DNA from: a virus
Strand: one strand, 5' to 3'
Length of the DNA: 30,619 nucleotides
Virus record (IMG/VR): IMGVR_UViG_3300025120_000315
Location: 1-30,619 of that record
Shown: piece after piece, positions 11,877-17,615 of the stretch
Numbering within the stretch: the stretch's first letter is position 1
Layout: each line of letters opens with the position of its first letter
Notes under the pieces: generated by a model
Seen by the model: the letters and a program-made list of their open reading frames with translations, nothing else
Databases searched by the model: none
Told to the model about the DNA's origin: nothing
Made by a program: the position numbers and the translations under genes

Positions 11877-12348
11877 CCAAAGGGTTATTAGCCCTTGTCT
11901 TCATCTCTTCCATAAGTATATCTTGTAATTCGTTTTCTTTTGCTACTACAGCAAGTTTCTTTTCTATTTCACCTAAAGCTTTTTTGATTTCCTTAATATC
12001 TTTTTTAAGTCCATCAATATTAGGTATGTCAATCATAGCCATTTGTTCTCTGACTTTAGCTATGTCTTTAAATACTGTTGTTAAATCTACAGGTATAATC
12101 TTATCGTCTACCTTTTTAATTCTGTCTATTAAGTCTACTTTATATTCATTAGCATATAACAATGCTTCATCTATTTTAGCATTTAATTCTTTATCTTTAT
12201 TTTTTAGCGAAGATAAATTAACTGGTGGTGTAGATTCTATTGCATCAAGTCTGGTATTGAACTGACCCCATGTATAAAAGCCTCCACCGATTGCACCTAT
12301 TACACCTATTAGTGCGGCGTATGTACTAAGTTTCTCTATTATTTTCAT
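11869..12348 (-). CDS. Membrane-anchored coiled-coil protein, end of lysis/export cluster
   Basis: This is a 159-residue protein. Residues about 8-27 form a hydrophobic Gly/Ile/Ala-rich helix with a Lys before it, typical of an N-terminal membrane anchor or uncleaved signal. The rest is charged and strongly helical, with heptad-like Leu/Ile spacing at about 90-150 that suggests a coiled coil. It starts by TAATG overlap with the gene upstream (AAGGG seven bases before) and is the last gene of the - strand cluster. An anchor plus coiled coil near lysis genes is also seen in spanin-like or baseplate-accessory proteins, but I see no lipobox partner and assign no function. Confidence 0.75.
   Translation of the reverse strand: MKIIEKLSTYAALIGVIGAIGGGFYTWGQFNTRLDAIESTPPVNLSSLKNKDKELNAKIDEALLYANEYKVDLIDRIKKVDDKIIPVDLTTVFKDIAKVREQMAMIDIPNIDGLKKDIKEIKKALGEIEKKLAVVAKENELQDILMEEMKTRANNPLAN
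11880..11896. terminator. Hairpin at the convergent gene junction (weak bidirectional terminator candidate)
   Basis: AAGGGTT and AGCCCTT pair as a 7-bp stem (one T-G wobble) around a 3-base loop. It begins four bases after the giant gene's TAG and lies inside the last codons of the - strand membrane protein. Neither strand has a strong T-run after it, so termination would be weak or factor-assisted. The position where two opposed transcription units meet is what makes it plausible. Confidence 0.4.
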
Positions 12349-13934
12349 TAATTGCCCTTTAGTTTTTTTAATTCTATCATAAGAGATAGCTTTTGTCTAG
12401 ATAAAAATTCCATTCTTTCTTCGAAAATCTGCATAGGATCATTCATAGAATAGGCAGACAGGGTAACACCAGCATATATTTGTACACTGTAGCCACCCAA
12501 GTCCACCTGATTCTCAAATAATTCTAAGTTAGCATCTTGATAAATATCTTTAGACTCGTAAAACTCTACCTCCTCATAGGAATCTAGTTCTGGTTGGATT
12601 AACATCTTATCAATTTTGCTAAGTTGCTTGTCAACTTTCTTAAGTTCTACTGTAGTTCCTCCAACATCTGTAGATATTTCAATTTGTTTCTCGGACTCCG
12701 TTGATATCTTTTCTTTGTCTCCTGTCTCTGCAGTCTGTATCTCGGTGTCCTCAGATTCTTCGCTATCAGGTTCTGCTTCTTCAGTTGTTTCATTCTCATC
12801 CTCAGCAGCCTCCGATACGCTCTCTTTGTTTTCTGGCTCCTCTTCCATTGATTCACCAGTATCTTCCATAGTCTCCTCATTCTGAACCTCCTTTGTTGGT
12901 TCTTCCGTTTCTTCTATGGTAGCTTCTTCTGTGATTTCCATCTCAGGTTCAGCTTCAGGTTCTGGTTGTGACTCGACTTCTTCCATCTCTGCCACTTCCA
13001 TTTCCATTTCTGCTTCTAGTTCCGCTATTTCTATTTCTTCTTCTTCAATAACTTCCATGTCAGCTTCTTCTATTATATCTATGTCTTCCGTTGAAATCAT
13101 AAACATCTCTTCAAACTCTTCGAAAGATTCAAAGTCTTCAAAGTACATGTCTTCTTCTATTATTTCTGGAAGAACATCGATCATAATAAACTCGTCTTCA
13201 AAAGTAAATTCTTCTTCAAAGAAATCTTCTGGTATATCTTCTATTATATCTACAATATCTTCATCAATATTATCTATAGATTCTTGTGCATCTTCATTGA
13301 TAGGGGGTATATCTTTATACGTTACATTTAATGTAACATTATCTACATCTGGCCCACGATGAGAGTTGTCATAAGCTGTGCCTGCAGTTTCATTAAATAA
13401 CTCTGCTCTAATTGTAATATCTGTTTGTGTATTTGAACCTTGGATGTATTGATTTGTATAGTTTGTAAACTTATTACCAGTTGTACCGCTAGTGCCAGTT
13501 ATCTCTCTGACTTGTGTAGATACTGAACCATCAGCTCCTGTAATAGTTTGTTTAAGAGTAAGTGTGTTTTCTATATTATTCCAAAACCATACGTCTGCCC
13601 CCATAGTTGAGGTAAAACCTTGGTTCATTTGATGTTGTGTTAAATGGCCATCATCAACTAAATCTACATCTTGGTGTACATTATCCTCTTCATGTCCTTC
13701 AAATGCTAACACACCTCCACTGTCATCCATGCCTGTTTGATATGGAAATCCATTCCAAGCACCGTGCGTGTGGATACCTTCGTCACCGTCTGTTGACCAA
13801 CCAGTTGTAGTTGTAGTATCGCCTGTCCCAAAAGTAGAATTGGAAAGAATGTTTCCTGTGTTTACTTCTGTACTAGTCGCTGTGGACGTTAACAGGCAAA
13901 GGGTCAATAACAGGCTCGATATCGTTAACTTCAT
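12348..13934 (-). CDS. Exported protein with beta domain and very acidic Glu-rich region
   Basis: This is a 528-residue protein. A Sec signal peptide is clear (Lys2, then Leu/Thr/Ser-rich hydrophobic residues 5-18, cleavage likely near residues 19-22). Residues about 25-205 are Thr/Gly/Asn/Asp-rich with aromatic residues and look like a jelly-roll or carbohydrate-binding-like beta sandwich. Residues about 210-420 are an extreme low-complexity acidic region dominated by Glu, with Ile, Met, Pro and Ser. The C-terminal 100 residues are less biased and end in a Lys-rich helix. Start: ATG with AGGAG, overlapping the end of the upstream exported protein by 62 bases. The function is unknown. A periplasmic or surface-acting factor made late in infection, or a virion surface protein, is possible. 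Confidence 0.8.
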   Translation of the reverse strand: MKLTISSLLLTLCLLTSTATSTEVNTGNILSNSTFGTGDTTTTTGWSTDGDEGIHTHGAWNGFPYQTGMDDSGGVLAFEGHEEDNVHQDVDLVDDGHLTQHQMNQGFTSTMGADVWFWNNIENTLTLKQTITGADGSVSTQVREITGTSGTTGNKFTNYTNQYIQGSNTQTDITIRAELFNETAGTAYDNSHRGPDVDNVTLNVTYKDIPPINEDAQESIDNIDEDIVDIIEDIPEDFFEEEFTFEDEFIMIDVLPEIIEEDMYFEDFESFEEFEEMFMISTEDIDIIEEADMEVIEEEEIEIAELEAEMEMEVAEMEEVESQPEPEAEPEMEITEEATIEETEEPTKEVQNEETMEDTGESMEEEPENKESVSEAAEDENETTEEAEPDSEESEDTEIQTAETGDKEKISTESEKQIEISTDVGGTTVELKKVDKQLSKIDKMLIQPELDSYEEVEFYESKDIYQDANLELFENQVDLGGYSVQIYAGVTLSAYSMNDPMQIFEERMEFLSRQKLSLMIELKKLKGN

Positions 13935-15151: not shown

Positions 15152-15655
15152 TTATGAATCTATACCAAAGAATTTATATGCTCTGTCTTTAGTAGCTTTG
15201 TCTGGTTTGGTGTGGTGATACTTAGCATATAAATCATAGCCAGCTTTGTTATCACCTTCTTCATATTTTTTTAATAGATCCATAGTAGGATCTGGATTTT
15301 GTTGTAAGTTTGCAAAGAATAAATCTTTTTGTTGTGCTTCGTTTAAACCCATCACACCTGTTTCCTCAGCTTTTTCTAACCACAAAGGAACAGTATAACC
15401 TTTTGCTTCATAAACATTTTTTGCTCTTTGAACAGCTGTCTTAAATCCAGCATCAGTAAATTGATATACACCTTTAGCAGTTGAGTCTGGGTTTTCTAAG
15501 TTTTGACCACCGTCACTTTCTATACCAGCTACTGTGCTAGCGTAGTTGTTTAGCGTTTCATTACTTAAACCATATTCATCTCTTAATATGTTATCCATTT
15601 TAGTACCATCAATTAACGTGGTAATTTGAGAAAACAAATCTTTAATACCCGCCAT
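15152..15655 (-). CDS. Lysozyme-like endolysin (lytic transglycosylase fold)
   Basis: This is a 167-residue cell-wall hydrolase, taken to cleave peptidoglycan at the end of infection. The signature is AGIESDGG (catalytic Glu46) followed after about 13 residues by AKGVYQF (60-66), the pattern of the lysozyme/transglycosylase superfamily (E-S ... GxxQ). The C-terminal half is helical and charged. I start it at ATG 15655, which has AAAGG eight bases upstream. In-frame GTG 15757 and ATG 15733 would add a hydrophobic N-terminus, but that DNA is the coding region of the 44-residue cysteine-rich gene in another frame and neither start has a good ribosome site. The neighbouring membrane protein is the probable holin. 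Confidence 0.82.
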   Translation of the reverse strand: MAGIKDLFSQITTLIDGTKMDNILRDEYGLSNETLNNYASTVAGIESDGGQNLENPDSTAKGVYQFTDAGFKTAVQRAKNVYEAKGYTVPLWLEKAEETGVMGLNEAQQKDLFFANLQQNPDPTMDLLKKYEEGDNKAGYDLYAKYHHTKPDKATKDRAYKFFGIDS

Positions 15656-15776
15656 CCCATAACCTTTCGGCTTCTGTGCCTTCGTGTTCACAGTTAGCGC
15701 ATTCACATTCACCGCCCAAACAAGAACCGCCATTGCTACAATGACACGAATGACCACAGTTAGTACACTCTGGCAT
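15642..15776 (-). CDS. 44-residue eight-cysteine metal-binding-type peptide
   Basis: This short gene reads from ATG 15776 to TAA 15642 and encodes 44 residues with Cys at 4, 7, 11, 13, 19, 24, 26 and 29 and His at 9, 12 and 31. The CxxC, CxC and CxxC pairs are in a Gly/Ser/Asn context, and the tail is acidic. It is metallothionein- or zinc-knuckle-like, so Zn(II) or Fe binding is the natural guess. Support that it is real: AGGAA seven bases before the ATG, a TAATG junction with the upstream gene, and a dense cysteine pattern unlikely to arise by chance in A+T-rich DNA. Its last 14 bases overlap the lysozyme start. It has no signal peptide, so it should act in the cytoplasm. Confidence 0.72.
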   Translation of the reverse strand: MPECTNCGHSCHCSNGGSCLGGECECANCEHEGTEAERLWDGGY

Positions 15777-16015
15777 TATGTTCCTAAACTTATATCGTTG
15801 AATGCTCTGATCGGATATGAATCTACTTCAAAACATATAGAGCTAAAGAGAGCTTGAGTATCTCCTTGGCTACTAGCATAGTCCTTATAATTTTGTACAT
15901 ACATTTCAGTTGACTCTAAACAAGTTTGCATATCTGGATATAAATATCCTTGGTATTTAACTGACGGCCACTCGGGCATTGATGTAATTATTATTGCCAT
16001 AAATACTTTTATCAT
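15776..16015 (-). CDS. Small putative exported protein
   Basis: This is a 79-residue protein with a short hydrophobic N-terminus (residues 4-11, after Lys3) that may be a weak signal or anchor. A small domain follows with two cysteines (32 and 61) that could pair if exported. Motifs such as QGYLYPD and CFEVDSYPI are ones I recall from small proteins beside lysis genes in marine phages, always without assigned function. It begins one base after the TAA of the gene upstream, and its own TAA overlaps the ATG of the cysteine-rich peptide. Confidence 0.7.
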   Translation of the reverse strand: MIKVFMAIIITSMPEWPSVKYQGYLYPDMQTCLESTEMYVQNYKDYASSQGDTQALFSSICFEVDSYPIRAFNDISLGT

Positions 16016-16382: not shown

Positions 16383-17615
16383 TTATGCGGCCCACTGAAG
16401 CCATTGTTTACCCCGTTTTTTCACAGGTGTTTCATCACATATGATTGGTACTTGAAAGGTAATACCATGTTGCGGATGCGTAAACCATAAAGCTTGTTTA
16501 GGTATCTCAAAAGCAAAACGATTACTCATTGCGTACTCGTCATAGCCTTTAAGTGAGCCATTTACAATGGCCCCTTTGATAGATATATACTGATGGAAGT
16601 GCCCCATGATAACATAGTCAATGGACTTGCCAAGGTTTGTATACTCTGATCTAACCTTCTGAACTCCTCTCGCAATAGGCCCAAGCATTCCAACAATACC
16701 TGTACCTCCTCGCACACCGAGTCTATCCCCGTGTGTTAGTAGATATGTAGTGTCGTATACTTTATAATACGTATCGAATCCAGTTGGTATCTGAAATTTA
16801 ATTCTGTTATCATTAACAGATTTAAAATGTTTCTCTAATAAATTATACAGCATCCAATCAAAACTTAAATGTGCCGCTTCTTTATTTCTATATTGTTGAT
16901 AAGCACGAGAGTGATTACCGTAACACGTAGGTACAAATACTTTACCAAACTTATCAGCTAATGTACTAATTGTCCAGATCATCTGATCAAACAACTCTAA
17001 CACATGATCGATTGTTGTTCCGTCATTTGATTCAGTTAACTCATCGTGTATATTACCAGACATCATGTCACCACCCAAAGCTAATACTATACCAGGGTAC
17101 TTAGGATTGACCATGTGATTATGGCATAAGTCTATTGCATTTTCTACAGTGCTTTTTAATCTATCTTGTGATATCTTTTTATTAAAGTTATTTAGATTAT
17201 TAACAGCATCTTTCTTAACGACTTCACCGTAGTGAAAGTCTGACAAGAATAATGTAGGCACACCTGGTGTGTTCTTAGATGGCGTAGATTTAATCGTCCA
17301 CTTAGGTGGTGTCGGATCATACTCTCCCAGTTTAAATACGTGCTTGCGTATATAACTAGCTGTAACATTTTGCAATGTTGCTTCTTCTAATTGACTTTTA
17401 AGATCACGTATCTGTATATCGTGTGTCATCTTTTGTTCTGCCAAAGCTACTTCTAAATCTGGAGACTTCACCGATGGTGTTATGTTTTGTCTCTTGGCTT
17501 TGGATACTCTGTCGCACAGAGTTGGTCTTGGAATACCTAAACGTCTAGCTGCTTCGGACTTATTTCCTTTGGCTAACACTAAAGCGTTCACTGCTTTTTG
17601 TAAATTTGTGTCCAT
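16383..17615 (-). CDS. Metallophosphoesterase with N-terminal helix-turn-helix
   Basis: This 410-residue protein begins with a Fis/homeodomain-like helix-turn-helix (about 15-40, NKSEAARRLGIPRPTL), then a helical linker (50-95). A calcineurin-type metallophosphoesterase domain follows from about 118. Its motifs are all present: DFH (Asp126, His128), GGD (Asp183), GNH (Asn234, His235), THGD (His295) and GHFH (His339, His341), so two-metal phosphodiester or phosphomonoester hydrolysis is expected. The substrate is unknown. The HTH suggests it acts on or near DNA, as MRE11/SbcD-like or nucleotide-processing enzymes do. Start: ATG with AGGAG seven bases upstream, overlapping the previous gene. 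It is the last gene before the hairpin and the late promoter. Confidence 0.88.
   Translation of the reverse strand: MDTNLQKAVNALVLAKGNKSEAARRLGIPRPTLCDRVSKAKRQNITPSVKSPDLEVALAEQKMTHDIQIRDLKSQLEEATLQNVTASYIRKHVFKLGEYDPTPPKWTIKSTPSKNTPGVPTLFLSDFHYGEVVKKDAVNNLNNFNKKISQDRLKSTVENAIDLCHNHMVNPKYPGIVLALGGDMMSGNIHDELTESNDGTTIDHVLELFDQMIWTISTLADKFGKVFVPTCYGNHSRAYQQYRNKEAAHLSFDWMLYNLLEKHFKSVNDNRIKFQIPTGFDTYYKVYDTTYLLTHGDRLGVRGGTGIVGMLGPIARGVQKVRSEYTNLGKSIDYVIMGHFHQYISIKGAIVNGSLKGYDEYAMSNRFAFEIPKQALWFTHPQHGITFQVPIICDETPVKKRGKQWLQWAA

Follow-up and report, generated by a model that had tools for sequence, protein, structure and literature searches.

The small cysteine-rich gene and its neighbours

The window analysed here is the whole 30,619-nucleotide stretch of viral DNA in IMG/VR record IMGVR_UViG_3300025120_000315. 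One of its short frames (Table 1) is translated as MPECTNCGHSCHCSNGGSCLGGECECANCEHEGTEAERLWDGGY, a peptide of 44 residues with eight Cys and three His. The cysteines stand at C4, C7, C11, C13, C19, C24, C26 and C29, and are thus spaced as CxxC, CxC and CxCxxC. Its start codon runs into the TAA of the 79-aa frame before it, so that the two overlap as TAATG. The frame ends 14 nt into the lysozyme-like frame that follows, whose start (15655) falls within the small gene. A sequence-only reading had pointed to a Shine-Dalgarno site and to this TAATG junction. Both are present, and relatives retain the junction together with GGA- or GGGA-type ribosome sites.

Table 1. Features of the small cysteine-rich gene and of the adjoining genes in the window
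Feature	Position	Strand	Basis
Gene of the 44-aa putative metallothionein-like miniprotein	15642..15776	-	ORF; relatives with all eight Cys; frame-specific purifying selection
Conserved putative metal-ligand core, residues 4-29 (C4 to C29)	15690..15767	-	Invariant Cys/His columns
Shine-Dalgarno AGGA, 5 nt upstream of the ATG of the Cys gene	15782..15785	-	Read in the sequence
79-aa frame preceding the Cys gene	15776..16015	-	Neighbour cluster 6; without family match
Lysozyme/transglycosylase-like gene following the Cys gene, 167 aa	15152..15655	-	PHROG match
Probable membrane protein, 174 aa	14624..15148	-	PHROG_38283; hydrophobic segments read by eye

The adjoining gene had been called a lysozyme gene. 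The frame is indeed lysozyme-like, but the identity is weakly supported, with a PHROG transglycosylase match at E 8e-4 and no Pfam match. The 174-aa protein has homologues in Pelagibacter (SAR11) phages, with 62.8-64.1% identity over 81%, and those of cultured SAR11 phages are annotated as hypothetical or as peptidase M15. From the RNR and one neighbour gene alone, the window phage is judged to have a probably SAR11-like host. A close relative of its DNA polymerase was sought and none was found.

Two other minus-strand genes of the window have unusual features. A 410-aa protein (16383-17615) carries at its N-terminus a helix-turn-helix of Fis type (PF02954, E 7e-6) together with the metallophosphoesterase motifs GDMM, GNHSR and GHFHQ, recognised by reading, which is an unusual fusion. 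A 528-aa protein (12348-13934) begins with a signal-like segment and contains a long acidic run rich in Glu; the antisense strand of its gene is open for 148 codons, probably by reason of GAA/GAG/GAT repeats.

Cysteine richness alone is unremarkable in this DNA. Among the 211 window ORFs of at least 30 aa, two are richer in Cys, so composition by itself is no proof of a gene. Relatives were therefore collected from IMG/VR, queried first with the lysozyme-like protein and then with the small protein itself. The former query led to two contigs (83% identical there) with the same frame and all eight Cys, and the latter to at least 13 relatives at the same locus that keep the frame, the TAATG and all eight Cys. 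The TAATG is constant in these 13 although the preceding bases differ. Over 13 distinct nucleotide sequences of the window group, pN/pS is 0.09 in the Cys frame as opposed to 1.56 and 0.95 in the two alternative frames, and the variable columns are distributed over codon positions 1, 2 and 3 as 8, 2 and 20. Other subgroups of the family give 0.10-0.23 in frame versus 0.76-2.8 in the remaining frames. Since conservation in relatives is joined by frame-specific selection, comparative sequence analysis confirms the frame as a real gene. The claim of an overlooked gene of 44 residues and eight cysteines is thus borne out, along with the conserved Cys spacing and the negative selection that had been named as its checks. 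Relatives with stops in the frame or with unconserved cysteines, named beforehand as grounds for giving the gene up, were looked for at this locus and did not appear.

The family, its composition and its surroundings

A first alignment confirmed 89 relatives in IMG/VR, and a second, for which the shortest type served as the basis, at least 174. Members are 29-70 residues long, and the loci read hold at least 60 distinct core sequences. From 26 diverse members and these 60 cores the core was read as C-x2-C-x-H-x-C-H-C-S-N-G-x2-C-x(2,4)-C-x-C-x2-C-x-[H/C]. The regular expression that defines the 60 cores demands the cysteines, and the short seeds of a separate search left most of the eight uncovered; the 80 loci listed from that short-seed search are therefore the fair test of Cys conservation, and all 80 have the eight Cys. 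The His of the CHC motif is invariant among the 60 cores. The first core His (H9) is replaced by Cys alone (L215-L217), and the last ligand column holds H in 47 cores and C in 13. Such interchange of His and Cys at fixed sites is a mark of metal ligands, and together with the invariant Cys it makes the metal binding that the sequence-only reading had suspected probable. S, N and G beside the ligands are nearly invariant as well.

The remainder of the protein is free to change. The loop may be x2 or x4 long and the tails vary, yet the ligands stay, and beyond the core the tails are wholly different between groups. The window type has a loop two residues longer than most members. Locus L057 shares its position and its WDGGY tail, yet has the short loop, which indicates that loop length drifts while the ligands are kept. 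One contig (L059, the same as L218) has two different copies of the gene, with a long CCGGQ loop and a short TS loop, which are paralogues.

The proteins are small and Cys-rich, contain CxC and CxxC pairs and are poor in aromatics, as metallothioneins are, whose Cys content is about 15-33%. Cys makes up 18% of the whole 44-aa peptide and 32% of the cores. Aromatics number two in 1584 core residues, and hydrophobic residues are almost lacking. The mean core charge is -1, and the window peptide has a pI of 4.4 and a charge of about -8. Most members are devoid of a hydrophobic leader or export signal, and several have odd numbers of Cys (9, 11). As potential ligands the members offer 8 Cys with 3 His or, where the protein is of the 29-aa type, 9 Cys with 2 His. 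Zinc ribbons or fingers would have four Cys and a hydrophobic core, instead of the 8-11 Cys and no such core found here. AlphaFold2, run with a 26-member alignment, predicted nearly no secondary structure and no hairpins, at low confidence (pLDDT 62); this model is consistent with a metal cluster and is not proof of one.

The gene occurs in at least six different neighbourhoods. In the window group it stands between the 79-aa frame and the lysozyme-like gene, which is followed by the probable membrane protein. In HMO-2011-like podoviruses it lies upstream of terminase genes with DUF6321 neighbours, the terminase being 72% identical to that of Pelagibacter phage HTVC033P. A third layout has a portal gene (by reading), the Cys gene and a small membrane protein of GTA_holin_3TM type or similar. 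A fourth has a GH108 endolysin (L114-L116, L200-L217), the Cys gene and a nuclease-like gene. In T4-like phages the gene is found between gp5-like and gp25-like baseplate genes, and in further arrangements it is followed by one and the same pair of small genes. As far as gene content tells, every layout is late or lysis-side and none is recognisably early.

In the gp25-type loci, a TATAAATA late-promoter-like box lies 5-6 nt upstream of most ATGs of the Cys gene (L083:3987-4003, L051:2611-2626, L086:3116-3131 and similar loci). Each locus has only one to three of these boxes and its opposite strand has none; a short inverted repeat, GTGCGACA...TGTCGCAC, often comes before the box. An mRNA started there would be leaderless or nearly so, and the gene would form an independent late unit. 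A second box is found shortly upstream of gp25 in these T4-like relatives.

The recurrent pair consists of cluster 10 (about 124 aa, with a transmembrane segment and a coiled coil by reading) and cluster 15 (about 75 aa). It follows the Cys gene in L040, L041, L057, L066, L079 and L093, directly or after lysozyme and membrane protein, and its presence in unrelated phages makes a mobile module possible. In the terminase-side layout, L072 (2316-2609 and 1492-1809) encodes Lys-rich small proteins together with the Cys gene, assigned to DUF6321 (PF19846, E 1.5e-20) and PHROG_23735.

Searches of Pfam, PHROG and NCBIfam gave no credible match for any subtype. Raising the limit to E 10 in Pfam and NCBIfam, where bias filters penalise Cys-rich matches, brought nothing relevant, and a profile search of PDB yielded no sequence match. 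No relative was met in the genomes of 84,980 prokaryote species, scanned twice, and only chance-level matches in 50,697 phage records searched by tblastn and blastn with several members. When 13 whole phage records, cultured SAR11 phages included, were searched with an HMM, no Cys gene was found; a control on nine records known to carry it recovered all nine, using another family alignment. These negatives hold within the sensitivity of the respective searches. The family has presumably been overlooked because genes so short and Cys-rich escape gene callers and family libraries. In the literature consulted, no phage, marine-virus or auxiliary-gene metallothionein was found, and the family may be an unnamed cluster in Fremin et al. 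2022. That work is reportedly a study of small phage genes. The metallothionein-like class is known, but a phage-only family of such sequence is apparently undescribed.

Proposed late metal buffering and its alternatives

We consider it reasonably probable (about 0.6) that the gene encodes a phage-specific metallothionein-like miniprotein acting as a late metal buffer, convergent with the metallothioneins of cells, where we infer both metal binding and stoichiometry from sequence. Zinc or copper, held in metallothionein fashion, would be the most likely metals. Within 28 residues, the eight Cys together with as many as three His would wrap a small metal-thiolate cluster, probably of 3-4 Zn(II) or the equivalent in Cu(I) or Cd(II), with little secondary structure and no hydrophobic core. 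Its expression would be driven by late or lysis-side operons, in the T4-like relatives by a late-promoter-like site of the gene itself, and the protein would for that reason build up in the cytoplasm towards the end of infection. Its most likely task there would be to buffer or hold d10 metals and thiols set free as the host proteome is dismantled, and so to shield late enzymes and the assembly of phage until the cell bursts. This physiological purpose, the buffering of metals and thiols in a dying host, is speculative. A metal-thiolate cluster in a reducing cytoplasm is suggested because the proteins have a Cys-rich, slightly acidic core with almost no hydrophobic residues, mostly lack an export signal and may have odd Cys numbers. 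Neither a disulfide peptide nor a DNA-binding finger nor a signal sequence would readily combine these features. On the other side, the likeness to metallothioneins is one of composition and motif, with no sequence match in Pfam, NCBIfam or PDB, and several unrelated late neighbourhoods do not by themselves indicate metal buffering.

The strict S-N-G and the CxxC-G-H and CxNC-E-H motifs are more than a plain metal sponge would require; they could reflect a partner surface or a small zinc fold. The protein might accordingly be a minimal zinc-knuckle adaptor, with one or two structural Zn sites formed by the CxxC knuckles and the CHC...C half, whose S-N-G / N-C-E-H surface docks a phage or host protein, or else a small virion component. 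The resemblance of CxxCGH and CxNCEH to zinc knuckles, the constancy of S, N and G by the ligands and the place of some members between baseplate genes speak for such an adaptor. It is nevertheless unlikely, as the partner gene is not constant (muramidase, GTA holin, terminase, baseplate or nuclease), the tails share nothing between groups, 11 potential ligands in 28 residues go far beyond one or two structural zincs, and AlphaFold2 gave no confident fold. Control of lysis timing had also been suggested; the peptide might set the moment of holin or endolysin action through its metal or redox state. The lysozyme-like gene and probable membrane protein of the window group, the adjoining GH108 endolysin and the GTA_holin_3TM-type genes of many loci agree with this. 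Linkage to lysis genes is not constant, however: the HMO-2011-like copies precede terminase genes, the T4-like copies precede gp25 and have their own late-promoter-like box, and the HMM search met none in the 13 whole phage records, which renders this role improbable.

Control of host RNA polymerase, likewise raised from the sequence, or of nucleic acids by a zinc-finger-type regulator would suit the CxxC pairs, which are common in such factors. The peptide is strongly acidic and offers no basic helix, which argues against nucleic-acid binding, and the neighbourhoods, including the TATAAATA late box of the T4-like copies, are late and not early. Changing neighbours and charge thus make lysis timing and polymerase control less likely, the latter very much so. 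Equally hard to sustain is a disulfide-rich secreted peptide of toxin or knottin type: its high Cys content is offset by the lack of an export signal in most members, by members with 9 and 11 Cys, by CxC pairs and by a conserved His that interchanges with Cys. Finally, the conserved element might be an N-terminal signal or anchor of the lysozyme, begun at GTG 15757 (VIRVIVAMAVLVWAVNVNA...), with the Cys frame as its shadow. This shifted frame is open and hydrophobic in all group members, its hydrophobicity arising because TGY codons read one base later give Val or Ala, and we regard the longer GTG start as a by-product of the Cys codons. The value of 1.56 quoted above belongs to this signal frame and that of 0.09 to the Cys frame, and the Cys protein is also found at loci without an overlapping lysozyme. 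Such an artefact is scarcely credible, and a lysozyme signal peptide in the shifted frame is contradicted by the frame test.

The metallothionein-like reading may be taken further, albeit tentatively. There may exist a widespread, phage-only metallothionein family of independent origin, which builds an unusual multi-metal cluster of Cys8His3 or Cys9His2 type in proteins that can be as short as 29 residues. With it marine phages would retain zinc or copper towards the end of infection, and lysis would free the metal in ligand-bound form. In the open ocean, life is limited by trace metals. If the proposal is true, SAR11-type podoviruses, HMO-2011-like and T4-like phages share a common and overlooked tool for handling metals.

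Relation to known metallothioneins and zinc proteins

The prokaryotic metallothioneins (SmtA/BmtA; Synechococcus SmtA, Pseudomonas PflQ2MT) are likewise small, Cys-rich and cytoplasmic, and use His ligands. That family is further marked by a zinc-finger fold around one site; the phage core could be compared with it only through the low-confidence AlphaFold2 model (pLDDT 62). The ligand inventory of SmtA is presumably equal to the 9 Cys and 2 His of the 29-aa phage type. The phage family differs in being shorter, in its order of Cys, in the lack of a sequence match and in its confinement to phage contigs. The phage core is also nearly free of hydrophobic residues, whereas bacterial metallothioneins have some (PMC10612145). 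In the bacterial proteins, Cys and His occur together and 3-4 Zn(II) are bound (PMC10612145). Detoxification is not always their function: that of Pseudomonas is a stationary-phase survival factor, dispensable for metal resistance or acquisition (PMC7387436).

Zinc ribbon and knuckle proteins have in common with the phage family two CxxC pairs followed by G/E-H, but the phage protein has twice the Cys, no hydrophobic core and no predicted beta-hairpins. Vertebrate and fungal metallothioneins (beta domain, Neurospora MT) share with it the CxC-x5-C ... CxC-x2-C arrangement, the small polar spacers and the absence of aromatics. In contrast to these, the phage type has an N-terminal CxxCxH knuckle and an invariant His, with no detectable homology, and the likeness is most likely convergent.
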